Positions 3,554-23,211 of a DNA stretch of 64,000 nucleotides are shown one piece after another. Source of the stretch: Roseimaritima ulvae. GTDB lineage: Bacteria; Planctomycetota; Planctomycetia; Pirellulales; Pirellulaceae. The stretch's first letter is position 1. Each line of letters opens with the position of its first letter. The position numbers and the translations under genes were made by a program. The notes beneath the pieces are model-generated. The model saw only the letters and a program-made list of their open reading frames with translations, did not search any database and was not told the DNA's origin. The stretch lies in NCBI RefSeq assembly GCF_008065135.1, contig NZ_CP042914.1, positions 930,001 through 994,000 of the forward strand, written 5' to 3'.

Positions 3554-5254
3554 TTACCGGTGTCGGTAATAAACCTCCAGCGACAGCGCCCCCAGGGCGG
3601 TGGTGTAGACGCGGCCGCCATAGCCGCCCCAGACGCTGTCGGTGGGCCAGCTGCCGTCGGCTTGTTGGGTTCGCAGCAGTTCCTGTTTTAGACGCGCGTT
3701 CCAGGTATCCCAAGCAGGGCTTTGCAGCTGATGCAGGGCCAGCGAAGCGTAGTACCAGTAGTAGTAGTTGGCTTGGCCGTCGCCGGGTAACTCTTCCAGC
3801 AACGATGCTTCGGCTTCGCGGATTTCGGCGGCGGGAACCGGTTCATCGAGCAGCAGTCGAATCGCCAGGGCTTCGGCCGTCATCGTCCGCGACTCGGCTT
3901 GTCCGGGACGGTATCGTGCCAGCCCGCCCTGTTGGCCACCGCGGACGCTGCGAAGAAACTCGTGGATCAGCGGCATCGTCCGCGGATTCAGCGCGATGTC
4001 GGCTTGTTGGGCGCTGTGCAACGCCATGGCTTGCCAGCCCAGTTGACTGGTGTCGCCGGTTTCGCCGCGGCGGTATCGCCAGCCACCGGTGGTCGGGTGT
4101 TGTTGCCGTTGGCTGTAAGCGATCGCTGCTCGGGCCGCCGCGATGGCTTGCGGATCTTTGGTCATCGCCGCCGCTTCGCACATCGCCAGCGTGGCCATGC
4201 CGTGGCTGTAGGTGCGAGCGAATTGGGTGGCGCGACCGGCTAGCGATCCATCGGGGGCTTGGTTGCGGATCAGGTAGCTGAGTCCGGCGTGGACGTTTGC
4301 GGCGTAGGGGCCTTCACGATGGGTGTTGCCGCTGCCCAGCATCGACAGCAGTGCCAGGCCGGTGATCGCCGACGTGCAGCGGCGGCCCGCGCCGCCGCGG
4401 GCCTCTCCCAGCGGGGCGCGTTCCTGCCCCGCTCCACTGGCCGTCGGATCCCAAGACCCGTCGGGGCGTTGGTAGTGCGCCAACCATCGCAGAGCGGCCT
4501 CGACCGCCGCTTCGGTGTGTTCGTCGCCCCCGCGCCGCCGCAGCGCCGCGGCTTTGGCGTCCCCGCTGCGGTTGGCAAAGTCGTCGGTCGGGCCGCCGAC
4601 CACACGAGCCGAGGCGGCGATGGCGGGGATGGCGGGGACCGTGGGCGTTGGGGCCGGTTCGTCGACGTGAGCCGGTTCGCTGGCCGGTGCGGCTGCGACG
4701 GGCGACGAAGCGACCGGTCGCGGAGCCGCCGGGGCGTCGCTGCGGATCGCCGCGGTCGGGGCATCGTCGAGCAGTAAATCGTTCAGCAGATCATCCAGGC
4801 CGGCGTCGACCAGATCGTCGGTCAGAGCAGGTGGGGCGGCCAAACTGGCGACGTCTGGCGTCAACGTCTCGATGGTTTTCGGAGGCGGTTCCACTGGCGA
4901 GGGCGGTTCGGGCTCGACGGGTGCCGCGGGGGACGGCATCGGCAGCGGCGGCGCGGCCAAGGCGTCTCCAGCGGACGAACTATCGGCCAGCGGTTCGGTG
5001 GTGAAGTCGGAAATCGAGATTTCGGCGACCGGAGCCGGTTGCTGGCCGTCGCCTTCGTCGGAGCCGCCGGCCGGCTGCGTGATCAGCGGAACCAACCAAA
5101 ACAAGAGCACGTGCAGGACCACCGAAAACACAATACAGACCGCCGCCGCGCGGGGACGACGCTTGCGACCGCGGCGCAGCAACCACCAAGTCGCCAACAT
5201 CAGGATGATGGCGAGTGCAGCTATCGGCCAGACAACTCGCGGGTCATTCCACAT
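3554..5254 (-). CDS. TonB-like anchored protein with squalene-cyclase/prenyltransferase-type toroid domain
   Basis: 566 residues. The start is ATG 5254, 10 bp after the exbD stop; the frame is open further upstream, but that part overlaps exbD. Visible order: TM1 (residues about 8-26); a basic loop; TM2 (about 38-56) containing S44-x3-H48 in FSVVLHVLLFW; a long Pro/Ala/Glu-rich linker (about 60-245, with EPPSPVEPPP); then repeats resembling prenyltransferase/squalene-oxidase alpha/alpha toroids (QRPDGSWDP near 262, NQAPDGSLAG, TTGGWRYRRG, QQADGSWPTDS). The S-x3-H helix and the Pro-rich arm are how TonB and TolA couple to ExbBD/TolQR. With exbB and exbD in the same unit, I infer that the toroid replaces the TonB C-terminal domain in the periplasm. 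No DxDD cyclase catalytic motif was noticed, so terpene cyclisation is unlikely. Confidence 0.8.
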   Translation of the reverse strand: MWNDPRVVWPIAALAIILMLATWWLLRRGRKRRPRAAAVCIVFSVVLHVLLFWLVPLITQPAGGSDEGDGQQPAPVAEISISDFTTEPLADSSSAGDALAAPPLPMPSPAAPVEPEPPSPVEPPPKTIETLTPDVASLAAPPALTDDLVDAGLDDLLNDLLLDDAPTAAIRSDAPAAPRPVASSPVAAAPASEPAHVDEPAPTPTVPAIPAIAASARVVGGPTDDFANRSGDAKAAALRRRGGDEHTEAAVEAALRWLAHYQRPDGSWDPTASGAGQERAPLGEARGGAGRRCTSAITGLALLSMLGSGNTHREGPYAANVHAGLSYLIRNQAPDGSLAGRATQFARTYSHGMATLAMCEAAAMTKDPQAIAAARAAIAYSQRQQHPTTGGWRYRRGETGDTSQLGWQAMALHSAQQADIALNPRTMPLIHEFLRSVRGGQQGGLARYRPGQAESRTMTAEALAIRLLLDEPVPAAEIREAEASLLEELPGDGQANYYYWYYASLALHQLQSPAWDTWNARLKQELLRTQQADGSWPTDSVWGGYGGRVYTTALGALSLEVYYRHR

Positions 5255-5264
5255 CAACCAAGCC

Positions 5265-5672
5265 CTACCGCCGCTGCGGTTGGACAGCGATCCCGAGATT
5301 TTCGACACCGCTGGAACGGCAAATATGAAGGATTTCAGTAAACTTGCTGAGTGATTCGCTGGCGTCCGCACGGACCGTTACCCGCAGGTCGGGATACGAC
5401 GCATGAGCCGCTTCCAATTCACCCCGCAACTCCAACATGCTGACGGCGCGACCGTCGAGCGATAGTTGGCCGCTGGGAGCCAGTTCGACCGTGCGTTGAT
5501 CCGGGCCGCGGACCATCGGGTTCAACTGACCCACGCCCGGCACGTTGACTTCGATGCGACTTTCTTGATCGGTGAATTTGGCACCCACCATGAAAAAAAT
5601 TACCAGCAGAAACACGACGTCGATCATCGGCGTCAAGTTCAACGTCGCTTCTTCGGCAGGTCGTCTACGCAT
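5265..5672 (-). CDS. exbD: ExbD/TolR-family biopolymer transport protein
   Basis: 135 residues from ATG 5672; the frame extends upstream to 5729, but only through a repeat element. The N-terminus is cytoplasmic and basic (MRRRPAEEATLNLTP). It is followed by the single TM helix PMIDVVFLLVIFFMV, whose Asp18 is the conserved proton-relay residue of ExbD/TolR. The rest is the periplasmic ExbD fold with a final strand near VENLGIAVQP. It should form a proton channel with the ExbB encoded upstream and drive the TonB-like protein encoded 10 bp downstream. Length and motifs are normal for the family. Confidence 0.92.
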   Translation of the reverse strand: MRRRPAEEATLNLTPMIDVVFLLVIFFMVGAKFTDQESRIEVNVPGVGQLNPMVRGPDQRTVELAPSGQLSLDGRAVSMLELRGELEAAHASYPDLRVTVRADASESLSKFTEILHICRSSGVENLGIAVQPQRR

Positions 5673-5700
5673 GAGGTTGGCTGTTAGGAGTGAGGTACAA

Positions 5701-5806
5701 GGTCGTTTTTCGCTCCGCGAAAACAACATCGCGTTGGCTGTTTCGTTTTGTTCGCGGAGCGAACAGCGATCTTTTCGTTATGTTCGCGGAGCGAACAACG
5801 ACCATG
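5701..5806. repeat. Palindromic repeat cluster (TTCGCTCCGCGAA family), exbB-exbD gap
   Basis: Three copies of a short GC-rich palindrome fill the gap between the exbB and exbD genes: one as TTCGCTCCGCGAA and two in the opposite orientation as TTCGCGGAGCGAA, bounded by GGTCGT and ACGACC. The first and last copies are inverted, so the whole block could fold into a hairpin in the mRNA. The same family occurs at 11331, 33046 and 37303. Confidence 0.85.
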
Positions 5807-5807
5807 G

Positions 5808-6719
5808 CTACGCCGCGCGTCGGGACTTGCGACTGCGGGGGGAACTGGTTTCGAGGCCTTCGGCACTGATCGAATCGATCACCTTCTGACACAGACTGTC
5901 GATGTCTCCCAAGTACTTGTCGGCTTTGCTGGTGAAGTACATGTAGGCCAGGTAAGCCGGGATGGCGACGCACAGCCCGCCCGCGGTCGTCACCAAGGCC
6001 ACGCTGATGCCCGAGGCCAGCAGTTCCGGCCGTCCCATCGATTCCGGTGACGCCATCGTGTCGAAGGCTTGGATCATGCCCAGCACGGTGCCCAGCAGGC
6101 CGAGCAGCGGGGCGATGTTGCTGATCGCGTGAAACACTCGCAGGAATTTCCGCAGGCTATCGGTGACGCGGTCGCCGGCGTCCATCACGGCTTGTTCGAT
6201 TTCGATCACCGGGCGTCCCCAACGTTTGACCGCGGCGTGGAAGACTTCGGCAACCGGGCAGTCAAAGTCGTCGCAGATCTGCGCCGCTTCGTCGTAGCTC
6301 AACTGTCCGTCTTCCACACACTCGGTAAACCGCCGCACAAAGGGACGCGGGATCACGCGGCTGCGGCGGAGCGCGATCAGCCGTTCCAGCGAGAGGGCCA
6401 GGACAATCAGCGAACAAACGCCCAAGGGGATCATCAACGGACCACCCTGGCTCAAGCGGTTCAGGAAGCCGGGCAGTTTCGCTTCCGCGGTTTCGGTTTC
6501 CTCGGCCGCCGCCGCAGGGGGACTTTCGACCGGAGCCGCTTGTGGCATCGCCGCCGAGGGAATCATCGGCGCGGGCGAAAAGTTCTGCATGCCGTTGCCT
6601 GCCGGCGGTGGCGGGTATTGTGTCTGAGCCGTTGCGGGCACCACCGAACAGAACACACCTGCCAATACGACGAAGGCGGCGAGCGAAACGGGGCGCAGAT
6701 ACGAATGAGAACGTTTCAT
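5808..6719 (-). CDS. exbB: MotA/TolQ/ExbB proton channel family protein
   Basis: 303 residues with an N-terminal signal peptide (cleavage plausible after ATAQ near residue 32) and a Pro/Ala-rich periplasmic stretch. This longer ExbB form is common outside enteric bacteria. Three TM helices follow: about 93-115 (LMIPLGVCSLIVLALSLE), about 195-220 (NIAPLLGLLGTVLGMIQAF, the signature containing the conserved pore Thr) and about 232-262 (GISVALVTTAGGLCVAIPAY). It forms the pentameric channel scaffold that uses proton motive force with ExbD. Upstream is the secreted TPR protein, downstream exbD and the TonB-like gene, all on one strand. Confidence 0.93.
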   Translation of the reverse strand: MKRSHSYLRPVSLAAFVVLAGVFCSVVPATAQTQYPPPPAGNGMQNFSPAPMIPSAAMPQAAPVESPPAAAAEETETAEAKLPGFLNRLSQGGPLMIPLGVCSLIVLALSLERLIALRRSRVIPRPFVRRFTECVEDGQLSYDEAAQICDDFDCPVAEVFHAAVKRWGRPVIEIEQAVMDAGDRVTDSLRKFLRVFHAISNIAPLLGLLGTVLGMIQAFDTMASPESMGRPELLASGISVALVTTAGGLCVAIPAYLAYMYFTSKADKYLGDIDSLCQKVIDSISAEGLETSSPRSRKSRRAA

Positions 6720-6753
6720 GGCAGGTGGATTAGGGGGAATGCGAGCGGACGGC

Positions 6754-6788
6754 TTGAGATTTGAGATTTGAGATTTGAGATTTGAGAT
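6754..6788. repeat. Heptanucleotide tandem repeat (TTGAGAT)5
   Basis: Five perfect copies of the 7-mer TTGAGAT lie just upstream of the exbB start, between it and the TPR gene. Period and unit are exact. It is a candidate slipped-strand site that could change spacing in the leader of exbB. Confidence 0.9.
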
Positions 6789-6890
6789 TGGCCAGCGGCG
6801 TTAGGGGCGGCACACGGTTTGGCCGGCGCCTGCGACTTCGGGGGTAACAATTCGCTTCTTGTCTCTTCCCAATAATTAACAACTAACAAC

Positions 6891-8885
6891 CTACCGCCGT
6901 TGGTTGCCGTTGCGGATCACGGCCAAGCGATCGCGGGCTACCAGGGCGTGTTCGGTATCGGCAAAGCGTTGCAACAGACCGCCGTAGCAAATGGCGGCGT
7001 CGCGGGGCCGCCCCATCTGTTCGAAGGCCTTGCCGGCTTGCACCAGAGCCACGGCCGTCCAGTTGCCGGCCGGCGTGTCGAAGGATTCGACCAGTCGATA
7101 GGCCTCGACAGCTTCGTTAAAGCGGTGTTGCAGCAGGAAGGTTTCGCCCACCAGCCACTGGGCGCGGCAGCGGACTTGGGATTCGGTACGTTCCAGTCGC
7201 ACGACGCGTTGCAGGATCGATCGGGCTTGCTCCAGGCGAGCTTGACGGATGGCCAATTCGGCACGGAGCACTTCGATCAACGTCCCGTCCGAACCTTCGG
7301 GCTGCTGGACGGCATCGGCGGCGGTTTGCCATTTGGCGGTTGCGGTTTCCAGGTCATCGAGCGCCACGGCCAGTTCCGCGCGACGGATCAGCGTCGCAAA
7401 ATCGGTTGCTCCGGCGTCCGCGGCGGCATCGAACCAACGCTGTGCCGCTGTGGCACGTTTGGTTTGCATCAAAGCTTCGGCCAGCAACCGCACGCTGGTC
7501 GGCGACAGCCGTGCGATGGCTTGGTCGGTGGCGACGTGTTCGGCGGAAAGGGCCAGCATCGTCCAACGTCCCGATTCCGCCGCCCAGCGACACACCGCGT
7601 CGCAGGCCGCCGGGAAGTTGTCCGCTGGAGCGTTGTCTGCTGGCGCGTTGTCTGCCACAGATTCGGGGGGCGCCTCGGATTCGATCTGGCGGAGCACGGT
7701 GGCGGCCAAACGTTCGGCCGCGGCGTCTTGGCCGGCAGCGCTCAACCGCTGCAAGGCGGCGGCGACAATCGTTCCGTTGTGCGGGTGATGGAGAGATTGT
7801 GTGACGCAGGCCTGCCAGTAGTTTTCATTATCTCCCTGGGCGGCGTCCAGCATGGCGGCGGCAAGCAGCTGCACGCCCAGTTCGCACGCAACCGGTTCGT
7901 TCGGTCCCAGCGTGCCATCGAGCACGATCCGCTGTCGAGCGGCGGTTAATGCGGGCGGGGCCGGGCGATCGTTTGGTGCCGAAAGTTCTTCTGCTGCGGC
8001 GATCGCCATCGCGGCCGATGCCGCGTCGTCGCGACCGGCCGTGGCTTGCAGAATGGTCAGCAACACCTCATGCACTTTGTCGACATTGCCGGCCTGACGC
8101 CAGCAAGTCGCTTCGGCTCGCAAGGCGCGGAGGGCATCGGGATCTTCTGGGTATCGTTCCGAGAAAGCTCGCAGGCGAGCGGCGGCGTCGGCCGGCGGTT
8201 GGGCGCCCAAGGCCGCAGCCCAAGCGATGCCCAGTTGGGCTTGCCGCTGCAAGGCGGCTGAGTCGGCGTGGTCGGCGAGCCACTGATAGGTCTGTTCGGC
8301 GATCCCCGGCTGGGGGCGAGTCAGGGCAGCGGCGCCGATTTGATTCGCTAGGTCGGTCAGTTTGCTGGCAAAGGCTGCATCGGCAGACCGCAGAGTTTCC
8401 CAAGCCGCCTTGGCATCGCCGCCGGATAGTTGGCTGGCGATCTGGATCCGCGTCGCCAGTAAACGTTGGCGAGCATCGCTGGATTGCGCCAGCACTTGGC
8501 TGCTCCACTGCATCGCCTGATCGGTCTGTCCGCTGCGATAGGCCGCGTCGGCTGCGATGACCTGCAACATCCCGCTGTCGGATTCGGGAGGAGTTTGTTG
8601 CAGAGCGCGTTCGTATTGTTTTAAGGCGGCGGCGTGTTGCTGCAGTTTGCTGAGCGACTTGCCGTTGGCGATCAGGGCCGCGGTGAGCGTGGCCGGCGGC
8701 GGGGACTGATCGATCAAGTTTTGGAGAGTCTGGTGAGCCTGTTGGTAATCGCCGGCGGCCAGCAAAGCCAGACCGCTGCGAAGCTGAGGATCGCTGGCCC
8801 TCGACTGCGCACGGAGCTCTCCTGTTACCGGAATCCATCCCAGAAACAACGCGATAAACAGTCCGATCGGCGCCTTGCTGCGCAT
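6891..8885 (-). CDS. Secreted TPR-repeat protein
   Basis: 664 residues from ATG 8885, chosen because it gives a clean signal peptide (MRSKAPIGLFIALFLGWIP, cleavage near ELRAQ); the frame extends upstream to 8939. The mature part is almost all helical with tetratricopeptide-type pairs, e.g. SGLALLAAGDYQQAHQTLQ near residue 35 and FLLQHRFNEAVEAYRLVE and GRPRDAAICYGGLLQRF near the C-terminus. A small internal repeat (ADNAPADNAPADN) lies near residue 430. It is the first gene of the unit leading into exbB, exbD and the TonB-like protein. A periplasmic TPR protein beside a TolQR-like motor recalls CpoB/YbgF of the Tol-Pal system; that parallel is inference. Confidence 0.75.
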   Translation of the reverse strand: MRSKAPIGLFIALFLGWIPVTGELRAQSRASDPQLRSGLALLAAGDYQQAHQTLQNLIDQSPPPATLTAALIANGKSLSKLQQHAAALKQYERALQQTPPESDSGMLQVIAADAAYRSGQTDQAMQWSSQVLAQSSDARQRLLATRIQIASQLSGGDAKAAWETLRSADAAFASKLTDLANQIGAAALTRPQPGIAEQTYQWLADHADSAALQRQAQLGIAWAAALGAQPPADAAARLRAFSERYPEDPDALRALRAEATCWRQAGNVDKVHEVLLTILQATAGRDDAASAAMAIAAAEELSAPNDRPAPPALTAARQRIVLDGTLGPNEPVACELGVQLLAAAMLDAAQGDNENYWQACVTQSLHHPHNGTIVAAALQRLSAAGQDAAAERLAATVLRQIESEAPPESVADNAPADNAPADNFPAACDAVCRWAAESGRWTMLALSAEHVATDQAIARLSPTSVRLLAEALMQTKRATAAQRWFDAAADAGATDFATLIRRAELAVALDDLETATAKWQTAADAVQQPEGSDGTLIEVLRAELAIRQARLEQARSILQRVVRLERTESQVRCRAQWLVGETFLLQHRFNEAVEAYRLVESFDTPAGNWTAVALVQAGKAFEQMGRPRDAAICYGGLLQRFADTEHALVARDRLAVIRNGNQRR

Positions 8886-8969: not shown

Positions 8970-9315
8970 GTAGCCGAAGTCGCCAGACTTTGGAAAGACA
9001 GGCCCAAGGCAAACTCGCAGGGTCTGTCCCCGCGCGTACTTTGCGGCTGAAGCCAGCTAGCAAAACAAACGCGCAGGGACTGTCCCCGCGCATGCTATTT
9101 GGTGTGATTTTGCAGCACCCGGGGCAGCGCCGCTTGCGCGCATCGGCCCCTCCCCCTAACCCCCTCCCCCAAATATTTCGCGATCAGGTTTGGGGGCGGT
9201 AGAGGACGTAGTGCGCGAAATATTTGGGGGAGGGGGGACCGGATGCGGAGTGGGGTGCGCAGGGACTGTCCCCGCGCGGCGGTCCCCGCGCGGCGGTCCC
9301 CGCGCGGCGGGGTCG
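8970..9315. repeat. Intergenic cluster of short palindromic repeats upstream of the microcompartment operon
   Basis: The 558-bp gap between the TPR and deoR genes holds no gene. It contains one GTAGCCGAAGTCGCCAGAC element (about 8970-8993), three copies of CGCAGGGACTGTCCCCGCG or a one-base variant (about 9016, 9072, 9258), and a tandem run of three CGGTCCCCGCGCGG-like units (about 9279-9312). Interleaved with these is the large inverted-repeat element at 9161-9237. The units are internally palindromic. They look like REP-type extragenic repeats. Confidence 0.75.
9161..9237. repeat. Inverted-repeat element, copy 1 (arms CCCCCAAATATTTCGCG)
   Basis: Two arms of about 22 bp (9161-9182 and 9214-9235), each with a C5/G5 run next to AAATATTT and CGCG, are exact reverse complements around a 31-bp centre. 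A second copy at 19212-19294 has the same arms, and its centre is related to this one in the opposite orientation. These are the only copies I found in the window. Confidence 0.85.
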
Positions 9316-9443: not shown

Positions 9444-10262
9444 ATGGCAACATTGAGCGGAAATGAGCAGAGTCGGCTGGAGTCACGGCGGCAGGAATTG
9501 CGTCGCACGCTGCAGACCCACGGGTTTGTGGCCTTGGGCGATCTGGCCTCGCGACTGGACGTCAGCGAGTCGACGATTCGTCGGGATTTGGACTTCTTGG
9601 AGGAACAAGGAGACGCTCGACGGACCCATGGTGGGGTGTTTTGGACCGGATCTCCGACCAGCATGCGGTTGTTCGAAACCCGCGAAGATTCGCTTTGGCA
9701 GCAAAAGCGTTCGATCGCGATCGCCGCCGCACGGCTGGTGGCGGACAACGAGACGATCCTCCTGGATGGAGGCAGCACGACCTACGAGTTGGCTCGGCAG
9801 TTAGTCGGCCGGCCGTTGCAGGTGGTGACCAACAGTTTGCCGGTGGCCAACCTATTTGCCGCCAGTGATACGGCGGATTTGATTCTGATTGGCGGTTACG
9901 TGCACGGCCGCACCGGCGTGACGATCGGAACGCTAGCCAACCAGGTGCTGCAGAGTTTGAACGTTAGTCAGGCGTTTTTGTCGGTCGCGGGCGTGGATTC
10001 GCGGGGGTTTTACAACAGCAATTTGTTGTTGGTGGAAACCGAGCGGATGATGATGGCGACCGCCGACCGAGCCGTGGTGATCGCCGACAGCAGCAAGTTT
10101 GGCCGGGCCAGCTTGTCGCGGTTGTGCGGATTGGGTGAGGTGCACACGGTGGTAACCGACCAGAAATTGAGCGACACCTGGCGTCAGCGGCTGCTGGACG
10201 CCGGGCCGCAATTAATATCGAGCGAAAACGAAGTCCCTATTGAACCAGTGACCCCTTCATGA
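9444..10262 (+). CDS. DeoR-family transcriptional regulator of the microcompartment operon
   Basis: 272 residues. The N-terminal DeoR helix-turn-helix is about residues 18-70 (recognition helix in [16 protein letters not shown]), followed by the RTHGGVFW hinge typical of the family. The C-terminal sugar-phosphate sensing domain contains [27 protein letters not shown] and the terminal [10 protein letters not shown] motif. DeoR repressors respond to phosphorylated sugar intermediates, here plausibly fuculose- or rhamnulose-phosphate or DHAP. Its stop overlaps the start of pduL (ATGA), so it is translated with the operon and probably autoregulates it. A DeoR gene opens the characterised Planctopirus limnophila-type locus as well. 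Confidence 0.92.
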
Positions 10263-10966
10263 CAAATCAAAGCGTGATTGAATCCCTCGTCCGCCAAGCG
10301 GTCCGCGGCGTCTTGCAGGCCACTCCGGCCGCCGGCGTCCAGCCGCCCGGTTGGGTCGATGGCAAACCAAATTTGCGGGTCAGCATTTCGGCTCGGCACT
10401 GCCATCTGACCGATGAGCACGTTGAGATCCTGTTTGGCAAAGGTGCCAAGCTGGAGCCGGAGAAGCCCTTGTATCAGGATGGCTTTTATGCCGCGGCCCA
10501 GACCGTGATGGTGGTCGGGCCACGACGCCGAATGCTTCCCAGCGTCCGCGTGCTCGGTCCGACACGCTCGCACAGCCAGGTCGAATTGGCCCTGACCGAT
10601 TCGATCTCCCTGGGCATCGACGCCCCAACTCGCCACAGCGGCGACATCGACGGCACGCCGGGTTGCGTGTTGGTCGGTCCGGCCGGCACGGTGCAGTTGG
10701 AACGCGGCGTGATCCGCGCCGCCCGCCACGTGCATATGAATCTCCATGATTGTCAGTATTACGGCGTCGAAAACGGCGACCTGATGAAGCTGGTCGTCAA
10801 AAGTCCCGCGTGCAGTGTGACCTTTGACGATTTGTTGGTACGTGCCGACGAGGCCGCCAAGCTGGAGGTGCATATCGACACCGACGAAGGCAACGCCTGC
10901 AATCTGGAGGCCGCCGAACAGGTGGAACTGCAGAAACAAACCGATTCGTGCAAGTGCCACGGATAG
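10259..10966 (+). CDS. pduL: PduL-type phosphate acyltransferase of the microcompartment
   Basis: 235 residues. PduL moves an acyl group from CoA to phosphate, here probably lactyl-CoA to lactyl-phosphate, and frees CoA inside the shell. Two His motifs of the family that bind the two zinc ions are present: SARHCHLT near residue 44 and AARHVHMN near 158. The N-terminus ([16 protein letters not shown]) is an amphipathic helix followed by a Pro/Ala/Gly linker, which is the form of an encapsulation peptide. The C-terminus ends in a Cys-containing tail (DSCKCHG). Length matches the family. It overlaps deoR by 4 bp. Confidence 0.94.
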
Positions 10967-11025
10967 GTCGGAACCCGGAATATTTAGTTCATAGTTAAAG
11001 CTCCTCAACTCGAAAGGTAATTCGA

Positions 11026-11319
11026 ATGGCAAACAATAATGAAGCGCTAGGCATGATCGAAACCAAAGGCTTTGTGTCTTTGGTCGAAGCGGCCGACGCA
11101 ATGATGAAAGCCGCCAACGTCAAGTTCCTCGGCTGGGACAACGTCGGCAGCGGTTTGGTCAGCGCCTTTGTGTCCGGTGATGTGGCGGCGGTCAAAGCGG
11201 CCACCGACGCCGGTGCCGCGGCAGCCGGCCGCATCGGCGAAGTGGTCAGCGTGCAAGTCATCGCGCGACCGCACGACGACATCAACAAAGTCCTGAAAGC
11301 CAAAATGGTCTCCGCCTAA
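11026..11319 (+). CDS. BMC-H hexameric shell protein 1
   Basis: 97 residues, a single Pfam BMC domain. It opens with [20 protein letters not shown], the canonical first strand and helix, and continues with the central [19 protein letters not shown] segment and the [10 protein letters not shown]-like last strand ([14 protein letters not shown]). The segment that normally lines the central hexamer pore is VGSGL. A good ribosome site (GAAAGG) precedes ATG 11026. It forms the flat hexamer tiles of the polyhedral shell. A second BMC-H follows after a repeat-filled gap. Assignment is certain; which of the two is the bulk tile is not. Confidence 0.96.
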
Positions 11320-11330
11320 CCGCGAGCCAG

Positions 11331-11426
11331 TGTCGCCTTTCGCTCCGCGAAAGTAGCGTTCTTACAATCTTTCGCGGAGCGAAAGCAGTGTCTTAAACAA
11401 TCTTTCGCGGAGCGAAAGACGACCAT
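11331..11426. repeat. Palindromic repeat cluster (TTCGCTCCGCGAA family), BMC-H gap
   Basis: One TTCGCTCCGCGAA unit and two TTCGCGGAGCGAA units separate the two BMC-H genes. The opposite orientation of the outer copies permits a long stem in the mRNA. Same family as at 5701, 33046 and 37303. Confidence 0.85.
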
Positions 11427-11472
11427 GAAAGCCGCTCGATGTTGAAAAGCAGACGGCGAAAACGAGCAAACG

Positions 11473-11820
11473 ATGGCAAAAAAAGCAGCCACTCCGAAAG
11501 CGGACAAAAAACAAGCGTCCTTATCCCCTACAGTTCAAAGAGTCATTGAGATGAATCAAGCAATCGGTCTGATTGAAACCAAAGGTTTGTTGGCATTGGT
11601 CGAAGCCACCGACGCCATGGCCAAAGCGGCCAACGTGGCGATCGTCAAGCGCGTCGACGTGGGCGGTGGTCTGGTCACCACGGTCGTCAGCGGCGACGTC
11701 GGCAGCGTTCGCGCCGCGGTTGAATCCGGTTCGGCCGCCGCCGCCCAAGTTGGTGAACTGGTCAGCAGCCACATCATCCCGCGTCCCGCCGAAGGCTTGG
11801 CCGAAGCCTTCCTGAAATAG
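11473..11820 (+). CDS. BMC-H hexameric shell protein 2 with Lys-rich N-terminal extension
   Basis: 115 residues from ATG 11473. The BMC domain starts at about residue 28 (AIGLIETKGLLALVEATDAM) and ends with VSSHIIPRPAEGLAEAFLK. Compared with the first BMC-H it has about 26 extra residues at the N-terminus (MAKKAATPKADKKQ), rich in Lys and Ala and probably disordered. An internal ATG at 11551 would give a standard-size protein; neither start has an obvious ribosome site, so the extension is probable, not certain. It is a paralogue of the preceding gene. The pore-region segment is VGGGL instead of VGSGL. Confidence 0.93.
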   Translation: MAKKAATPKADKKQASLSPTVQRVIEMNQAIGLIETKGLLALVEATDAMAKAANVAIVKRVDVGGGLVTTVVSGDVGSVRAAVESGSAAAAQVGELVSSHIIPRPAEGLAEAFLK

Positions 11821-11828
11821 TCGTATTG

Positions 11829-11849
11829 CACCCTCCCGGAGGGAGGGTG
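11829..11849 (+). promoter_or_regulatory. Stable intercistronic hairpin after BMC-H2
   Basis: CACCCTCCC (11829-11837) pairs perfectly with GGGAGGGTG (11841-11849) across a 3-nt loop, 9 bp downstream of the BMC-H2 stop. No T-run follows, so it is not a classical terminator. It more likely protects the 3' end of a processed shell-protein mRNA or attenuates transcription into ackA. Confidence 0.55.
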
Positions 11850-11920
11850 AAGTGAGTCCGTTTACAAATTGATGCTACGAAAGTTAGACGTCGCCATATC
11901 GCGTTAGGAACATCGGAACC

Positions 11921-13123
11921 ATGAAGGTATTAGTTGCAAATCTCGGATCAACCAGTTTTAAGTACCGGTTGTTGGACATGACCGACGAGTCCTGTCTGGC
12001 ACGCGGTGCGGTGGATCGTATCGGCGAACCTGTCAGTCAGTGTTCGGTCACGATCGGCGATTGGTCGGATTCCCAGCAACAATCGGTTCCCGATCATGGC
12101 GTCGCGGTTGAGGCTTGTTTGCAGCAATTGACGGATCCCGAGCACGGTTGCTTAAGCAGCCCCAGCGACGTTTCTGCGATTGGGTTTAAAGCGGTTCACG
12201 GGGGACGCATTTCCGGCGTGCACGTGGTCGACGATGATGTGCTGAGCGCGATGTCGGAGATGAATTCCGCGGCCCCGGCGCACAACCCGCCGTACATCGC
12301 GGCGATGCGAACGCTGGCGGAAAAGGTCTCGGACATTCCGCTGGTCGCCGCCTTTGAAACCGGATTCCATCTGTCGATCCCCGAGGCTCGACGGACCTAC
12401 GCCATTCCCAGCGAATGGACCGAAGCTTTGAACATTCAGAAGTGGGGATTTCACGGTGCCAGTCATCGTTACATCGCCACGCGAATGTCCGAGATTCTGG
12501 GACGCTCCGATGCCCGCGTGATCTCGTGTCACCTGGGAGGGAGCAGCAGTTTATGTGCGATTGAAAACGGGCAAAGCGTGGCCACCACGATGGGCATGAC
12601 GCCGCAGACCGGTTTGCCGCAAAACAATCGGGTCGGAGATTTTGACCCCTTTGCGTTGCCTTTGATCATGCAGCACACCGGTCAGTCGCTGGAGCAGGTG
12701 TTGCAGCGTTTGGCTAACGAATGTGGGCTACTGGGACTGAGTGGTCGCAGCGCCGACATCCGCGACATCGAAGTCGCGGCGGCCGAGGGCGACGCGCGTT
12801 GCCAACGGGCACTGGATGTGTATGTGGCGGAAATCCGTCGGCATCTGGGCGGCATGCTGGTGGCTTTGGGCGGCGCCGATGCGATCTGCTTTACCGCCGG
12901 GATTGGTGAAAACGGAGCGACCATCCGCGAAGCCGTTTGCGCCGGACTGGGGGACTTGGGAATCGAACTGGATGCCGCTCGAAACGCCGATCCCTCAACC
13001 AACGAACTGGGCGAAGCCACCGTGCATGGTGAGGCCAGTCGTACGCAGGTTTGGATCGTACCGACCAACGAAGAATTGATTGTGGCCCGGCAATGTTGCC
13101 AGTTGTTGCAAGCCAACGAGTAA
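11921..13123 (+). CDS. ackA: Acetate/propionate kinase family enzyme of the microcompartment pathway
   Basis: 400 residues. It converts acyl-phosphate plus ADP to acid plus ATP, here most likely lactyl-phosphate to lactate. Family motifs in order: NLGSTSFKYRLLD at the N-terminus, AVHGG, ETGFH, HGASHRYIA, the phosphate-binding CHLGGSSSLCAIENGQS, TTMGMTPQTGLP (canonical enzymes have DTSMGFTPLEG), and FTAGIGENG near the C-terminus. The altered TTMGMTPQTG loop may reflect another acyl substrate. No encapsulation-like helix is seen, so it probably acts outside the shell, giving the ATP of the pathway. It lies 100 bp after BMC-H2 and 38 bp before BMC-P1. Confidence 0.94.
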   Translation: MKVLVANLGSTSFKYRLLDMTDESCLARGAVDRIGEPVSQCSVTIGDWSDSQQQSVPDHGVAVEACLQQLTDPEHGCLSSPSDVSAIGFKAVHGGRISGVHVVDDDVLSAMSEMNSAAPAHNPPYIAAMRTLAEKVSDIPLVAAFETGFHLSIPEARRTYAIPSEWTEALNIQKWGFHGASHRYIATRMSEILGRSDARVISCHLGGSSSLCAIENGQSVATTMGMTPQTGLPQNNRVGDFDPFALPLIMQHTGQSLEQVLQRLANECGLLGLSGRSADIRDIEVAAAEGDARCQRALDVYVAEIRRHLGGMLVALGGADAICFTAGIGENGATIREAVCAGLGDLGIELDAARNADPSTNELGEATVHGEASRTQVWIVPTNEELIVARQCCQLLQANE

Positions 13124-13161
13124 ACCTTTTTAAAATTTAAAACCGTCGTTATTGAGTTCCT

Positions 13162-13470
13162 ATGTTTATCGCCCGTGTGACCGGATCGGTCGTCAGCACT
13201 CAGAAAGTCGCGTCGATGACCGGCCACAAGCTGTTGGTCGTCGAACCGTATCGACTGAACGGCGAAACACGCGACGAACTGGTCACGACCGGGCGGACGT
13301 TTATCGCCGTCGACACCTTGGGCGCCGGCGAAGATGACTACGTGTTAATCGTTCAGGGCAGCAGCGCCAGGCTGACGCCCGAAACCAGCAAACTGCCCAT
13401 CGATGCCGTGATCATCGGCATCGTCGATAGCGTTCACATCGGCAAACAAAACGTTTACGACCGCGAGTAA
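13162..13470 (+). CDS. BMC-P pentameric vertex protein 1 (EutN/CcmL family)
   Basis: 102 residues covering the whole EutN/CcmL domain: MFIARVTGSVVSTQKVASM, then LLVVEP, DTLGAGEDDYVLIVQGSSAR and the closing IDAVIIGIVDSVHI. The GAGEDDYVLIVQGSSAR-type segment is diagnostic. Pentamers close the 12 vertices of the shell. This is the longest and most canonical of the three vertex genes here. Preceded by an AT-rich stretch (TTTTTAAAATTTAAAA) and followed 84 bp later by the aldehyde dehydrogenase. Confidence 0.95.
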   Translation: MFIARVTGSVVSTQKVASMTGHKLLVVEPYRLNGETRDELVTTGRTFIAVDTLGAGEDDYVLIVQGSSARLTPETSKLPIDAVIIGIVDSVHIGKQNVYDRE

Positions 13471-13554
13471 GTAGTCCATAACTCCTCTTGTCCTTTGGCC
13501 CCGTCAGGCAGCAAACCGCGGGGAACAGAGGAAGCCTTTTTTCGAGTTAATTAT

Positions 13555-15018
13555 ATGCAATTTGACGAAAACCTGATTCGCAACGTAGTGGCTCAAGTGA
13601 TGGCCGAAGTGGGCCCGATCCCGGAATTGAAAACCGGCACCAACGGCTCGCCCGCCACCGCCGCGTCGGCCGCCGGACGCCACGGCGTGTTCACCGATGC
13701 CGATGAAGCGGTCGCCGCCGCGCGGCAAGCGTTTGAGGAGTTCTCGCGGTTCACGATGGAACAACGCCGGCGCGTGATTTCGATCATTCGCGACATCGCC
13801 ATCAGCCAGTGCGAAGAACTGGGCACGATGGAAATGGAAGAAACCCAGATCGGCCGTCTGGAGCATAAAATCGAAAAACTCAAGGCGTTGGGGGAGCTGA
13901 GTCCGGGGACGGAGTTCTTCACCACCCAGGCGTTTAGTGGCGACCACGGGTTGGCGATTATTGAACGAGCCCCGTTTGGCGTGATCGGCGCGATCACCCC
14001 CGTCACACACAGCTTGCCGACGATCACCGGCAACGCCGTCAGCATGCTGGCCGGCGGCAACACCGTGGTGGTCAATCCGCATCCCTCAGGCAAACGCGTG
14101 GCCACCGAAGGGGTTCGTCGCTACAACGAAGCCATCCATCGCGAAATGGGCATCGACAACTTGATCTGTGTGATTGCCGAACCCACTTTGGAATCGGCTA
14201 ACGCCATGTTTGCCAATCGCGATATCGCGTTGATCTGTGTGACCGGTGGACCAGCCGTCGGTCGTGCCGCGCTCCGCAGCGGCAAACGAGCGATCGTCGC
14301 CGGCCCCGGCAATCCTCCCGTGGTGGTCGACGAAACCGCGGATCTGGATCGCGCCGCCGAGTCGATCATTCAGGGTGGCGCGTACGACAACAACCTGCTG
14401 TGTATCGCCGAAAAAGAAGTCTTTGTGGTGGACAGCGTGTTCGACGCCATGATGGCCGCCATGCAGCGTGCTGGAGCGGTCAAGTTGGACGCTTCGCAAA
14501 TCGATCAACTGACCAGTAAGGCGATCGTCCAAGTCGGCGACGACAACCACGACGCGGCTTGCAAAGATTTTATTGGTCGCGACGCCTCAGTGCTGGCCGC
14601 CGCTGCCGGAGTGCATGTGCCCGATTCGGTCGAATTGTTGTTTGGTGAAACCGACGAACACCATCCGTTTGTCTCCGTCGAACAGATGATGCCCTTCATC
14701 CCCTTCGTGCGAGCTCGCGACGTCGATCACGCCATCGACATGGCCAAGCAGTACGAACACGGGTTCCGGCATACGGCGATCATTCATTCACGCAACATCC
14801 GCAACATGACCAAGATGGGCCGTGCTCTGGACACCACGCTGTTCGTCAAAAACGGTCCCTGCATGGCCAGCTTGGGGCTCGGTGGCGAAGGCTACCTGTC
14901 GTTCTCCATCGCCGGCCCCACCGGTGAAGGCGTTACCAGCCCGGTCACGTTCACCCGCGAACGACGCTGCAGCATGATCGACGACCTGAACGTCGTCGGC
15001 AGCCCCGACATGGTTTGA
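13555..15018 (+). CDS. CoA-acylating aldehyde dehydrogenase (PduP-like), encapsulated
   Basis: 487 residues from ATG 13555; the frame is open from 13495, but ATG 13555 starts exactly at an encapsulation-type helix ([18 protein letters not shown]) followed by a Pro/Gly/Ala linker. The rest is an aldehyde dehydrogenase fold: cofactor region [42 protein letters not shown], and the catalytic Cys in [15 protein letters not shown] as in PduP/EutE. Expected reaction: L-lactaldehyde + CoA + NAD to lactyl-CoA + NADH inside the shell. The product goes to PduL. Length is typical for PduP. Confidence 0.95.
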
Positions 15019-15155
15019 AGTTTGAAGTTTGCCCATCGCGTGTGAGGCCGTGGTCGGTGAGCAGCCCGTTGCAGTGGTGGACGTATTCGCCGGCGCCTGC
15101 GGCTACGGGTTAAACGATCACTGTCCCACTCACCAACAACCAACAACCAACAACC

Positions 15156-15413
15156 ATGCAACCTGCACTCGTCCTCGGATCGGCTCGCGCGACCGTCAAG
15201 CATGACAGCTTGAACGGCGAGCGGTTATTGGTCTTGCAGCCCTTGGGCGTGGACGACGCCGCAGATGGTCCGCCGCTGCTGGGACTCGATCACCTGGGCG
15301 CCCGCAAGGGCGACCGCGTGATGCTGACCAGCGACGGGGCCTACACCCGCGAGATACTCAATCACGACAACACGCCCGCACGCTGGACCGTGCTAGGGTT
15401 AATCGACGGATAA
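15156..15413 (+). CDS. BMC-P pentameric vertex protein 2 (short)
   Basis: 85 residues with the EutN/CcmL pattern: ALVLGSARATVKHDSLNGER, LLVLQPLG, GARKGDRVMLTSDGAY and the closing WTVLGLIDG. The nucleating GAxxGDxV(L)ΨxxG core and the final V(L/I)GΨΨD strand place it in the family despite low similarity to the other two. It lacks the C-terminal tail seen in BMC-P1. A 137-bp gap containing short AACAACC/TTGAAGT repeats separates it from the aldehyde dehydrogenase. Three distinct vertex genes is the number described for planctomycete-type loci. Confidence 0.9.
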   Translation: MQPALVLGSARATVKHDSLNGERLLVLQPLGVDDAADGPPLLGLDHLGARKGDRVMLTSDGAYTREILNHDNTPARWTVLGLIDG

Positions 15414-15416
15414 AAA

Positions 15417-15521
15417 GTACGTCAGCCTTTCCAGGCTGACATCCCACAAGCCACGTACACGCCCAAGCATCACACACCGAGTAACCGGACACTGCTGTCA
15501 GGCTAAAAAAGCCGGACGTAC
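15417..15521. repeat. Hairpin repeat (GTCAGCCTTTCCAGGCTGAC family) in the BMC operon
   Basis: Most of the 112-bp gap after BMC-P2 is a repeat unit. GTCAGCCT (15421-15428) pairs with AGGCTGAC (15433-15440) as a tight hairpin, and outer GTAC ends flank 15417 and 15521, the latter after a second CAGGCTAAAAAAGCC stem. Related elements are at 29249-29378 and 38864-38920. Confidence 0.75.
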
Positions 15522-15525
15522 AACG

Positions 15526-16182
15526 ATGAACCATTCCTCTGACACGATCGATCCACGCATGGTCCAAGGGATCGTGCGCGAAGTGTTGGAGCGGTTACGT
15601 CCGGAGGTGGCCGCTGAGTCGCCAGCGGCGCCCGAGATCTTTCCGCATCGCTTGATTACCGTGGAAACGCTGCAACAAGTTGGGCCCGGGCAGTCGCGGA
15701 TTGTCGTTCCTGCTCGGGCGATCGTGACGCCCGCAGCGGCCGACGAAGCCAAGCTTCGCAATCTGGTCATCGAACGGGCTTGTCCGGCGGCCAGCGAGAT
15801 CGCCGCGGCGCCCGTTCGGGCATCGCTGTGGTTGGTCGATGCGGATCCACAACAACGCGACGCAACGATTAGTAGGCAATTGAATTCCCGTGGTGTGAAC
15901 CTTGCCTCGCGATCGTTGGCCGATGCCATCGACGGCCTGGCAGCTGGCGAAGTCAACACCGTGGTGGTGTTGGCCGATCTGCCGGCCACCGTGGTCTGCA
16001 AATCTTGCCGGAACCCAAAAGTTCGCGCTGCAGCGATTCGCACAGTGGATGAATTGCAACGGATCGAACTGGCCCTGCATCCCAATCTGTGGGTGTTGGA
16101 CATGCATTCGATGGCGCTGCCTCAAGCGGTGGCGTTGGTGGAGCGTTGTGTTCGTCTATCGACAACGGGAGCCCTGTCATGA
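15526..16182 (+). CDS. Microcompartment-associated RpiB/LacA-like protein without catalytic Cys
   Basis: 218 residues; usually called hypothetical. It starts with an amphipathic helix (DPRMVQGIVREVLERLRPEV) plus Ala/Pro linker, the form of an encapsulation peptide. The middle has an IVTPAAADEAKLRN stretch recalling the TPAARD segment of other BMC-associated proteins. Residues from about 142 align without gaps to the C-terminal half of ribose-5-phosphate isomerase B as I recall it: AAGEVNTVVVLADLP against the family's GEVDGGILICGTG, then KVRAA for GIRA and HPNLWVL for the DTNVL segment. The catalytic Cys of RpiB corresponds to Ala here, and the GTG loop is lost. A structural or regulatory lumen protein derived from RpiB is inferred. 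Its stop overlaps BMC-P3 (ATGA). Confidence 0.65.
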   Translation: MNHSSDTIDPRMVQGIVREVLERLRPEVAAESPAAPEIFPHRLITVETLQQVGPGQSRIVVPARAIVTPAAADEAKLRNLVIERACPAASEIAAAPVRASLWLVDADPQQRDATISRQLNSRGVNLASRSLADAIDGLAAGEVNTVVVLADLPATVVCKSCRNPKVRAAAIRTVDELQRIELALHPNLWVLDMHSMALPQAVALVERCVRLSTTGALS

Positions 16183-16460
16183 AGATCGCGCGTGTGATCG
16201 GTACCGTCACGCTGGCACGCATGCATCCGGCGATGCAAGGCGCTCGGCTGCGTTGTGTCGAACAGTTGGCCACGATCGACGACCTTGACCAGCCCGTCTA
16301 CGGCGGTGAGACGATTGTCGCCTGGGACCTGTGCGGTTCAGGGCTCGACGATTGTGTCGCCATGGCCGAAGGCCCCGAAGCCGCTCAACCCTTGAAGCCC
16401 CGAACCGTACCGATCGACGCCTCAATCGTGGCCGTGCTCGATCACGTCGACGTCGATTAA
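16179..16460 (+). CDS. BMC-P pentameric vertex protein 3
   Basis: 93 residues from ATG 16179, which overlaps the preceding stop by 4 bp; the frame is open upstream but only inside that gene. The EutN/CcmL domain is clear: MKIARVIGTVTLARMHPAM, then VAWDLCGSGLDDCVAMAEG (the GAGxGDxVLxAxG core in a variant form) and IDASIVAVLDHVDVD at the end. Translational coupling with the RpiB-like gene suggests stoichiometric production of the two. Confidence 0.93.
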   Translation: MKIARVIGTVTLARMHPAMQGARLRCVEQLATIDDLDQPVYGGETIVAWDLCGSGLDDCVAMAEGPEAAQPLKPRTVPIDASIVAVLDHVDVD

Positions 16461-16518
16461 TTTTCCAAACCAACTCGCCCCCTCCCCAATTCAAATCCTT
16501 TTCGACCGGAGCAACGCA

Positions 16519-17382
16519 ATGCAGAGCCTACATAAGCTGAAACAAGAAATCTGTGATATCGGCCAGCGGATTTACAACCGCCAGTTCGCCGCCGCCAACG
16601 ATGGCAACATCACGGTTCGCGTGAGTGAAAACGAATTTCTCTGCACGCCCACGATGCACTGCAAGGGCTACCTGAAACCCGACGACATCGCGCTGATCGA
16701 CGGTACGGGCAAGCAGATTTCGGGCCGTAAAAAACGCTCCAGCGAAGCTTTGTTGCACTTGGAAATCTACAAGCAACGCGAGGACGTCCGCAGCGTGGTG
16801 CACTGCCATCCGCCCCACGCTACCGCGTTTGCAATCGCTCGCGAGCCGATTCCGCAGTGCGTGTTGCCCGAGGTGGAAGTGTTTCTCGGCGACGTGCCGA
16901 TCACCAAGTACGAGACGCCCGGCGGACAAGCCTTTGCCGACACCATTATCCCCTTTGTCGACAAGACCAACGTGATGATTCTGGCCAACCACGGCACGGT
17001 CAGCTACGGCGAAAACGTCGAACGCGCTTACTGGTGGACCGAGATCCTGGACTCGTACTGCCGGATGCTGCTGTTGGCGCGGCAATTGGGCAACGTGTCG
17101 TACTTGAACGAAGAAAAGTCGCGTGAGTTGCTGGAGCTGAAGGACAAGTGGGGCTTCAAAGATCCTCGCAATACCGAGGACTACAAGGACTGCGACATCT
17201 GCGCCAACGACATCTTCCGCGACAGTTGGGAAGGTGCCGGCGTGCAGCGTCGGGCGTTCGATGCTCCGCCCGCGGCCAAGTCCGCCAGCAGCGCCACCAA
17301 ACCGGCGGCTGCCGGCGGCATGAGCGAAGAGCAACTGGTCAAACTGATCACCGCCGAAGTCATGCGTCAAATGCAAAAGTAG
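16519..17382 (+). CDS. Class II aldolase (L-fuculose/rhamnulose-phosphate type) with C-terminal encapsulation peptide
   Basis: 287 residues. It should split L-fuculose-1-P or L-rhamnulose-1-P into DHAP and L-lactaldehyde. The aldolase/adducin domain spans about residues 1-210: NDGNITVRVSENEFLCTP (phosphate site), RSSEALLHLEIYK with the catalytic Glu, zinc ligands HCHPPHA near residue 95, and ILANHGTVSYG near 155. After the fold comes a long Ala/Lys/Pro linker (about 240-268) and a final helix MSEEQLVKLITAEVMRQMQK, an encapsulation peptide at the C-terminus instead of the N-terminus. Family members are usually about 215 residues, so the tail is the extra part. Confidence 0.94.
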   Translation: MQSLHKLKQEICDIGQRIYNRQFAAANDGNITVRVSENEFLCTPTMHCKGYLKPDDIALIDGTGKQISGRKKRSSEALLHLEIYKQREDVRSVVHCHPPHATAFAIAREPIPQCVLPEVEVFLGDVPITKYETPGGQAFADTIIPFVDKTNVMILANHGTVSYGENVERAYWWTEILDSYCRMLLLARQLGNVSYLNEEKSRELLELKDKWGFKDPRNTEDYKDCDICANDIFRDSWEGAGVQRRAFDAPPAAKSASSATKPAAAGGMSEEQLVKLITAEVMRQMQK

Positions 17383-17405
17383 CATGGGCCCCCGGCCCGT
17401 GTCCC

Positions 17406-17472
17406 GTAGCCGAACTCGCCAGAGTTTGGAGGCTCCCGTATTTGTGTCCAAAGTCTGGCGACTTCGGCTACG
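17406..17472. repeat. Inverted repeat (GTAGCCGAAGTCGCCAGAC family) between aldolase and dehydrogenase
   Basis: GTAGCCGAACTCGCCAGAGT at the left and its near reverse complement, ending CTTCGGCTAC, at the right enclose about 25 bp. This fills the centre of the 134-bp gap. Related units lie at 8970, 29278 and 41304. Confidence 0.8.
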
Positions 17473-17516
17473 TGAATCCACGCACCTAATTCAAACTACA
17501 AGATATTGAGCAACCC

Positions 17517-18452
17517 ATGAAAGTTTCGATTATCGGGGGCGGCGGTTTGGTCGGCTCCTGTGCCGGCTATGCCTTGCAGTGTGGCGGGATTGTCCGCGAG
17601 ATCGCGATGTTGGACGTCAACGAAGAATTGGCGGTCGGCCAAGCCCTGGACCTGATGCATGGCGGGCCGAGTGTCGCCGATCAGAACATCGTCGGCGGTG
17701 GCTATGAGCACATTCCTGATTCCGATGTGATCTGTATCACGGCCGGTCTGCGTCGCAAGCCCGATGAGTCGCGGTTGGATTTGATCAATCGCAACACCGA
17801 CCTATTCGTGTCGATTTTGAACGAAGTCGCCGCCGCGGGGCCCAAGTCCTCGGCGATCGTATTGGTGGTTTCCAACCCCGTCGACATTCTCACCTACGTC
17901 GCTGCCGAGCGTTTGAACTTGCCCAGCAGCCAGGTGATCGGACTGGGCACGCAGCTCGATACGATTCGGTTCTGCAGCTTGATCGCTCAGGAGTTAAAAG
18001 CTCCGCCGACGCAAACCAAGGCCTTGATTCTGGGCGAACACGGCGATTCGATGGTGCCGATTTGGAGCAGTGCCACGATCGCTGGCCTGCCTCTGGACAA
18101 ATATCCAGGTTGGAATCCCGGGATGGCCAATCAGTTGTTCAAACGGACGCGGGGCAGCGGAGCGGAAGTGATCAAACGCAAAGGCGGCGCTGGGTTTGCT
18201 GTAGGGATCGCCATCCGCGACTGCATCGAAGCAATCGCCTTGGACCGCCGCTGCGTGCTGCCGGTCAGCAGCGTCCAAAATGGATGTTACGGTATCCGCG
18301 ACGTGGCCCTGTCGGTGCCCACGGTGGTCGGCCGCAGCGGGGTCGTGGACCGGCTGGAAATGGACTTATGGCCTAAGGAAGTCCAGGGAATCCGCTCCAG
18401 CGGTACCAATCTGCGAAAAACCTTGGATGTGGTTTCGCAACGAATCGGCTAA
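17517..18452 (+). CDS. Malate/lactate dehydrogenase family protein of the microcompartment operon
   Basis: 311 residues. Rossmann start MKVSIIGGGGLVGSCAGYAL, dinucleotide Asp in AMLDVNEE, active-site loop TAGLRRKPDESRLDLINRN, VVSNPVD and catalytic His in LGEHGDSMVP. Loop Arg at the position that is Gln102 in lactate dehydrogenases is the malate-type residue. In this pathway the enzyme is thought to recycle NADH from the aldehyde dehydrogenase, either by reducing lactaldehyde to 1,2-propanediol or by acting on malate/oxaloacetate; the Arg favours the second, which is inference. No encapsulation peptide is visible. Last gene of the operon. Confidence 0.9.
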   Translation: MKVSIIGGGGLVGSCAGYALQCGGIVREIAMLDVNEELAVGQALDLMHGGPSVADQNIVGGGYEHIPDSDVICITAGLRRKPDESRLDLINRNTDLFVSILNEVAAAGPKSSAIVLVVSNPVDILTYVAAERLNLPSSQVIGLGTQLDTIRFCSLIAQELKAPPTQTKALILGEHGDSMVPIWSSATIAGLPLDKYPGWNPGMANQLFKRTRGSGAEVIKRKGGAGFAVGIAIRDCIEAIALDRRCVLPVSSVQNGCYGIRDVALSVPTVVGRSGVVDRLEMDLWPKEVQGIRSSGTNLRKTLDVVSQRIG

Positions 18453-22854: not shown

Positions 22855-23211
22855 GGGAGCGTCCTCAAATAAGTTACCGAATCGAATTGTAGCGGCAGGG
22901 CGCAAGCCCTCCGGTTTTACGTCACCGGACGGCTTGCGCCGTTCCGCTGAGAGCGTTACGGCACCGGACGGCTTGCGCCGTTCCGCTGAGAACGTTATGG
23001 CACCGGACGGCTTGCGCCGTTCCGCTGAGAACGTTACGTCACCGGACGGCTTGCGCCGTTCCGCTGCGAACGTTACGGCACCGGACGGCTTGCGCCGTTC
23101 CGCTGAGAACGTTATGGCACCGGACGGCTTGCGCCGTTCCGCTGAGAGCGTTACGTCACCGGACGGCTTGCGCCGTTCCGCTAAGACGGTAACTTATTTG
23201 TGGACGGTCCC
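22855..23211. repeat. 39-bp minisatellite (7 units) enclosed by 25-bp inverted repeats
   Basis: Seven units of exactly 39 bp begin at 22923, 22962, 23001, 23040, 23079, 23118 and 23157, each starting CACCGGACGGCTTGCGCCGT. The core ACGGC-TTGC-GCCGT is itself a hairpin. One further unit in opposite orientation (AGCGGCAGGGCGCAAGCC) lies at about 22892-22916. The whole block is bracketed by 22855-22879 and 23187-23211, which are reverse complements at 23 of 25 positions and contain CAAATAAGTTACCG / CGGTAACTTATTTG. The array stays in frame for translation, but nothing suggests it is coding. No spacers, so not CRISPR. Confidence 0.93.

Follow-up and report, generated by a model that had tools for sequence, protein, structure and literature searches.

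A TonB/TolA-like protein with a squalene-cyclase-type toroid encoded beside ExbB and ExbD in Roseimaritima ulvae

Introduction

Ton and Tol are the textbook routes by which energy of the inner membrane reaches the outer membrane. Here we describe a possible relative of both in the planctomycete Roseimaritima ulvae, whose 8.2 Mb genome is a single contig (NZ_CP042914.1). We analysed a stretch of 64,000 nt (positions 930,001 to 994,000, hereafter the window), in which open reading frames (ORFs) and Pfam matches give four minus-strand genes in the order TPR protein, ExbB and ExbD, followed by a toroid-bearing protein of 566 aa; a preliminary description of the sequence had listed the same genes, and all were confirmed in that order and at those positions. 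The 566-aa protein is likely to act as a TonB/TolA-type force transducer that has the toroid as its output domain and is driven by the neighbouring ExbB-ExbD.

A system of the same build has been published. In the main text of Williams-Jones et al. 2025 (PMC12204202), vWA-tipped transducers are reported beside TPR, TolQ and TolR genes in the Planctomycetes-Verrucomicrobia-Chlamydiae (PVC) group, and two VWA loci of our own sample (loci carry L numbers; L055 and L057) are much like the arrangement given in that text. As described there, the vWA class differs from the window system in its tip, which in the window is a squalene-cyclase-like toroid, in having one transmembrane (TM) helix instead of two, and in a TolR pair where the window cluster has one ExbD. 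The words 'squalene', 'toroid' and 'prenyltransferase' have 0 occurrences in that main text, and no description of a toroid-tipped transducer was found in the open literature among the titles and abstract beginnings of the matches listed. The preliminary description had known of no such machine; this stands for the toroid tip within that literature, and not for the general build, since the vWA-tipped kind is published.

With TonB-ExbB-ExbD the window system shares an S-x3-H pair in a TM helix, a proline-rich arm, a candidate D-box-like strand, and ExbB together with ExbD. Unlike TonB, the 566-aa protein lacks a TonB_C domain (Pfam), has an extra TM helix in front and does not keep the Leu and the last Ser of the SHLS motif, and no receptor gene was seen by eye beside the cluster. 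Tol-Pal is similar in that TPR, TolQ-like, TolR-like and transducer genes lie in a single cluster; unlike in Tol-Pal, Pfam matches no C-terminal domain of TolA in the four proteins, neither pal nor tolB was seen by eye beside the cluster, and the equivalog cut-offs are not reached. Squalene-hopene and other class II terpene cyclases have the same alpha/alpha toroid with Q-x-x-x-G-x-W repeats, which the window toroid also bears. In contrast to squalene-hopene cyclase, the window protein is a single toroid on a membrane arm and DXDD is not conserved.

Results

The S44-x3-H48 pair, which had been noted inside the second TM helix (TM2), is present in predicted helix 30-59. In the phylum sample, S-x3-H was found in 21 of 23 toroid proteins encoded next to ExbD (hereafter linked), namely that of the window and 22 fetched ones, which include near-identical genomes such as L058/L059 and L057/L060. 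As a background, 524 TM segments from the 544 non-toroid ORFs of the same fetched loci include 16 with S...H, the two counts having been made with different hydrophobicity filters; three of these 16 have PSWxxSxxFH, an anchor of the kind that VWA proteins carry (two of them Pfam-tested). S-x3-H in linked toroid proteins exceeds chance. The two exceptions are L090, with A-x3-H, and L082, which is without a second TM helix. In the family sample, comprising 29 loci returned as best and 20 picked by hand from lower ranks, the TM2 His is present in 49 of 49 proteins, preceded by Ser in 44 and Ala in 5, with L127, L128 and L138 added by eye after the hydrophobicity filter had missed them. Conservation of the pair beside exbB and exbD, as the preliminary description had expected, is thus seen in both samples. 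In an alignment (A3) of the window protein and 14 homologues of its clade, made without the near-copies L059 and L060, the second linked clade, L082 and L090, S44 and H48 are the sole invariant residues of TM2; before the toroid, T22 and W24 are invariant as well.

The converse expectation, that the pair is lost away from exbB and exbD, was not borne out. The fetched loci hold 82 toroid ORFs, 60 of them unlinked, and 50 of these remained after dropping 5 short soluble-type proteins, 2 cut by contig edges and 3 without a TM helix. S-x3-H is kept in 41 of the 50, A-x3-H is found in 6 and the His is absent from 3 (L064-L066, whose genomes still encode ExbD), so that 47 have the TM His. The anchor is therefore general to the toroid family and not tied to a local exbBD.

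TonB contacts ExbD through the D-box, which the available text of Loll et al. 2024 (PMC10907165) describes as a proline-flanked alternation of hydrophobic and hydrophilic residues (P-z-P-z-P-P-z) just past the TM helix. The window protein has ISISDFT 35 residues past S44, with proline on both sides. The strict, published form is found in 8 of 49 family arms, compared with a shuffle mean of 1.0 (reached in 0 of 1000 shuffles). A relaxed form, with the fifth position free and framed after the sequences had been seen, occurs in 33 of 49 family arms (shuffle mean 3.9), in 5 of 21 linked arms of the phylum sample (mean 1.9; 30 of 1000 shuffles as high) and in 2 of 47 unlinked arms (mean 6.0); these shuffle counts overstate independence because the arms are related to one another. 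The only TonB_C protein of the source genome has the relaxed and not the strict form. Taken as sequence patterns, these counts point to motor coupling in the family sample, and less clearly in the phylum sample. The arm that follows TM2 is disordered and proline-rich (33 Pro in 166 residues), with a predicted local distance difference test score (pLDDT) mostly below 50. Linked arms have a median length of 325 residues (226-750, n=20), the window arm being 166, and unlinked arms one of 117 (98-174, n=47).

The preliminary assignment of a squalene-cyclase-type fold agrees with the structure model. Residues 218-566 were modelled by AlphaFold2 from a 66-row alignment with a mean pLDDT of 95.4, and the best Foldseek match in the PDB is a squalene-hopene cyclase (8pak_A, E 5.6e-07, TM-score 0.63), with further alpha/alpha barrels, among them AprG and GH76 mannanases, coming next. 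A profile of 66 toroids matches squalene-hopene cyclase at E 1.3e-17 and a pectate lyase profile at 1.8e-04. In the full-length model, helices 5-27 and 30-59 are followed by a low-pLDDT stretch at about 60-225 and then by the toroid. The charge is +7 before TM2, in the loop between the TM helices, and -4 after it; therefore TM2 is expected to run outward like the helix of TonB, and the arm and toroid are predicted to be periplasmic, as had been proposed. Of the 68 anchors in all, 45 have the higher charge on the side before the helix and 15 on the side after it, with no difference in 8.

The motifs of the toroid do not speak for terpene-cyclase catalysis either, and hence none of the three refuting outcomes named in the preliminary description came about (S-x3-H unconserved beside exbB and exbD, a toroid predicted in the cytoplasm, or catalytic cyclase residues). 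DXDD is seen in 5 of 66 toroid rows, scattered over differing positions, and is absent from the window toroid. Cyclase models of NCBIfam give the 566-aa protein 41.0 bits against a cut-off of 322.7, and the thioester motif CGEQ is found in 0 of 66 rows. Terpene-cyclase activity was rejected on the DXDD result. Seventeen columns are invariant over the 66 rows, and because 9 of them are Trp or Tyr, a conserved aromatic pocket is suggested. A binding role rather than a cyclase role is favoured, with a ligand or partner that may lie at the cell wall or outer membrane.

A toroid homologue at E<=1e-10 was found in 172 of 196 phylum genomes and a close homologue at E<=1e-65 in 140 of 149 family genomes. 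ExbD was detected in 191 of the 196, and presence by genome therefore says little. At the level of the locus, the gene immediately upstream of the toroid gene encodes ExbD in 48 of the 49 family loci (47 called by script and L165 by eye); the remaining one, L141, has A-x3-H. Of the 22 linked loci fetched for the phylum sample, 10 have ExbB immediately before ExbD; L081 and the f3 genomes (L053-L063 except L056, and L068) do not. A TPR gene precedes ExbB in 8 of the 10 ExbB-adjacent loci (Pfam; 2 of the 8 partial), as in the window, the upstream proteins sent to Pfam having been picked by eye for a TPR look and the denominator counting two loci that were not sent: L047, with unrelated divergent genes, and L082, where the sequence ends first. 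The source genome has nine toroid matches, among them five long proteins with the S-x3-H anchor, and two of these five sit in TPR-ExbB-ExbD-toroid operons, that of the window and a second one.

On a tree of 66 toroids the ExbD-adjacent label needs 3 changes, compared with 16.6 for shuffled labels. There are two linked clades, one holding the window protein (15 linked rows plus L067, a locus that starts at the end of a contig) and one formed by L013, L081, L097 and L104. The lone Verrucomicrobiota relative that was fetched, L050, is without a TM helix. Several unlinked anchors (L095, L096, L100, L102, L103, L107, L083, L084 and L089) lie near a second toroid ORF on the same strand, often in tandem, and downstream of the unlinked toroid anchor of L012 a 1441-aa ORF (13677-18002) resembles bacterial alpha-2-macroglobulin by eye. 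As regards phage origin, there was no PHROGs match for the two proteins compared; in PADLOC (anti-phage defence) the sole match was ExbB with ZorA, at 16 bits.

The anchor also carries other heads. A profile of 21 anchors gave 19 matches at E<=10 in the source genome, four of the best being rows of the profile itself. Besides toroid proteins that are among its own rows, these matches include two VWA ORFs, L120 4791-6407 (anchor E 8e-05, VWA below the Pfam cut-off) and L121 4148-6397 (a weak anchor match at E 0.07, VWA above the Pfam cut-off, S-x3-H by eye). At L055 an S-x3-H VWA protein lies upstream of TPR-ExbB-ExbD-ExbD, and at L057 a similar one lies upstream of ExbB and two ExbD. The sole TonB_C match of the source genome has S-x3-H too, next to a gene that is receptor-like in look. 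Hence the S-x3-H anchor heads in this genome include at least one TonB_C, two VWA and five toroids. In the linked proteins L082 1783-4176 and L090 6014-9823, PD40 repeats are found in the same chain as the toroid (PF07676 at 1.1e-25 and 4.6e-29); the A-x3-H anchor of L090 carries both the PD40 propeller and the toroid.

The features of the window cluster are collected in Table 1. The toroid protein scores 33.6 bits with SQHop_cyclase_C (PF13243; Pfam cut-off 26.1). We label the TPR protein secreted because its N-terminus resembles a signal peptide, as read by eye only. The top NCBIfam models of the three partner proteins are YbgF for the TPR protein (59.7 bits, cut-off 90.1), tolQ for ExbB (86.8 bits, cut-off 221) and tolR for ExbD, all below cut-off. 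ExbB of the window cluster holds GTV and ALVTTAGGLCVAIP stretches and its ExbD the TM Asp (both by eye), and among the adjacent ExbBs of the linked phylum-sample loci 9 of 10 have the GTV and 8 of 10 the ALxTT stretch, which we take to be the pore Thr sites. In the available text of PMC12905483, Asp25, Thr148 and Thr181 are given as essential in the ExbB-ExbD motor.

Table 1. Features of the TPR-ExbB-ExbD-toroid cluster (window coordinates)
Feature	Position	Strand	Basis
TPR protein, 664 aa, first gene of the cluster	6891..8885	-	Pfam TPR_2 1.8e-10 and other TPR models
ExbB/TolQ-like proton-channel subunit, 303 aa, N-terminal extension	5808..6719	-	Pfam PF01618 E 2.5e-28
ExbD/TolR-like subunit, TM Asp in LTPMIDVVFLL	5265..5729, probable start 5672 (by eye)	-	Pfam PF02472 3.4e-24
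Transducer-like protein, 566 aa: two TM helices, Pro-rich arm, toroid	3554..5254	-	SQHop_cyclase_C 2.8e-08
TM helix 1, residues 5-27	5174..5242	-	full-length structure model
Helix, residues 30-59, includes TM2	5078..5167	-	full-length structure model
S44-x3-H48 in TM2, TonB/TolA-type motor-contact pair	5111..5125	-	sequence and conservation
D-box-like strand ISISDFT, residues 79-85, relaxed form, candidate ExbD-binding site	5000..5020	-	published D-box form
Arm, residues 60-225	4580..5077	-	33 Pro/166 residues; pLDDT mostly <50
Alpha/alpha toroid, residues 226-566, squalene-cyclase-like fold, no conserved DXDD	3557..4579	-	model and Foldseek

Elsewhere in the window, a REP-like (repetitive extragenic palindrome) element, TTCGCTCCGCGAAC, occurs in 14 copies with <=1 mismatch (mean expected by chance 0.07) in four clusters (5709-5795, 11339-11416, 33056-33143 and 37310-37458), one of which sits between exbB and exbD. 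Another palindrome, GCGGGGACAGNCCCTGCG, is found in 3 copies upstream of the TPR gene (9016-9275), and a 39-bp tandem repeat of 6.9 copies at 22917-23186. The plus-strand genes at 10259-15018 resemble by eye a planctomycete microcompartment locus, with shell proteins, acetate kinase and aldehyde dehydrogenase.

Discussion

If the 566-aa protein is a transducer, as we think likely, its TM2 would dock on the outside of the ExbB pentamer via S44 and H48, and the ExbD dimer would capture the strand 79-85 just outside the membrane. Protons passing through ExbBD would then move the proline-rich arm, and hence the toroid, in the periplasm. The toroid would take the place of the TonB or TolA C-terminal domain and grip a partner, perhaps via its conserved aromatics; the TPR protein may be this partner or an adaptor. 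By strict membership the protein is neither TonB nor TolA, though it would work like one, because it has no match to either C-terminal domain and retains only half of SHLS.

Several observations weigh against motor coupling of this kind. Among unlinked paralogues S-x3-H is common (41 of 50) yet the relaxed D-box rare (2 of 47), and the TM motif alone is therefore no proof of drive by a particular motor. L082 is ExbD-adjacent yet lacks a His-bearing TM2, and in L090 and five family members Ala stands in place of Ser. Of SHLS (Ser-3X-His-6X-Leu-3X-Ser), the second half is not kept, the window protein having V55 and T59; Leu occupies His+7 in 7 of the 21 linked proteins and 32 of the 47 unlinked ones, and all four residues, with Ser or Thr as the last, in 7 of 68. 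According to the available text of PMC12905483, this Leu of TonB makes no ExbB contact. The strict D-box is not enriched in the linked phylum set (1 of 21, a count reached in 388 of 1000 shuffles), and the relaxed one was defined with the sequences in view. A strand-propensity test (11 of 68 arms at p<0.1) and the alternating pattern (25 of 68 arms, shuffle mean 19.2, 36 of 500 as high) gave no clear excess. Directly adjacent ExbB is missing from 12 of 22 fetched linked loci, and a toroid homologue is present in 4 of the 5 genomes (86-88% complete) in which ExbD went undetected.

In one alternative, the toroid protein would be a periplasmic enzyme or binding protein that stays static, placed by its TonB-like anchor at ExbBD for location or regulation and not itself moved. 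The Trp- and Tyr-rich invariant columns would suit a ligand or active site, the fold relatives include enzymes (cyclases, GH76 mannanases and, by profile, pectate lyase), and S-x3-H is kept in proteins without exbBD nearby. Nevertheless we regard this as unlikely: DXDD is not conserved, and the TM His, the D-box-like strand and, in most linked proteins, a long arm would be costly for a plain anchor. A class II terpene or squalene-type cyclase whose gene sits in an exbBD operon by chance is a very improbable reading of the toroid. PF13243 is above its cut-off and the fold and squalene-hopene cyclase profile match, but the lack of a conserved DXDD, the NCBIfam score far below cut-off and the predicted periplasmic location speak against it.

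The cluster could also replace Tol-Pal, in which case the TPR (CpoB-like), TolQ-, TolR- and TolA-like proteins would hold the outer membrane at division and the toroid would grip a Pal- or TolB-like partner. NCBIfam ranks TolQ, TolR and YbgF top for the three partners, and the linked proteins L082 and L090 join the toroid to PD40, the repeat type of TolB. However, all three scores are below the curated cut-offs, Pfam gives no match to the TolA C-terminal domain, and no pal or tolB was seen by eye beside the four genes, the rest of the genome not having been searched. We consider this replacement improbable.

In addition to the toroid-tipped transducer itself, we tentatively propose that Planctomycetota may use ExbBD as a general drive with interchangeable heads, the toroid version acting mechanically at the cell wall or outer membrane to remodel or load a ligand there. 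If true, the toroid and vWA versions together would stand beside Ton and Tol as an additional class of trans-envelope machine driven by protons. Bacteria may thus use the ExbBD-type motor beyond nutrient import and outer-membrane upkeep, and a machine that is built like Ton and Tol, has an unrelated tip and is near-core in a bacterial family (140 of 149 genomes) would mark this motor as one of general use. Motor coupling is open to direct test through the Ser/His pair and the D-box-like strand, and the toroid machine would give a handle on how the motor is used in planctomycetes, with their odd cell envelope.

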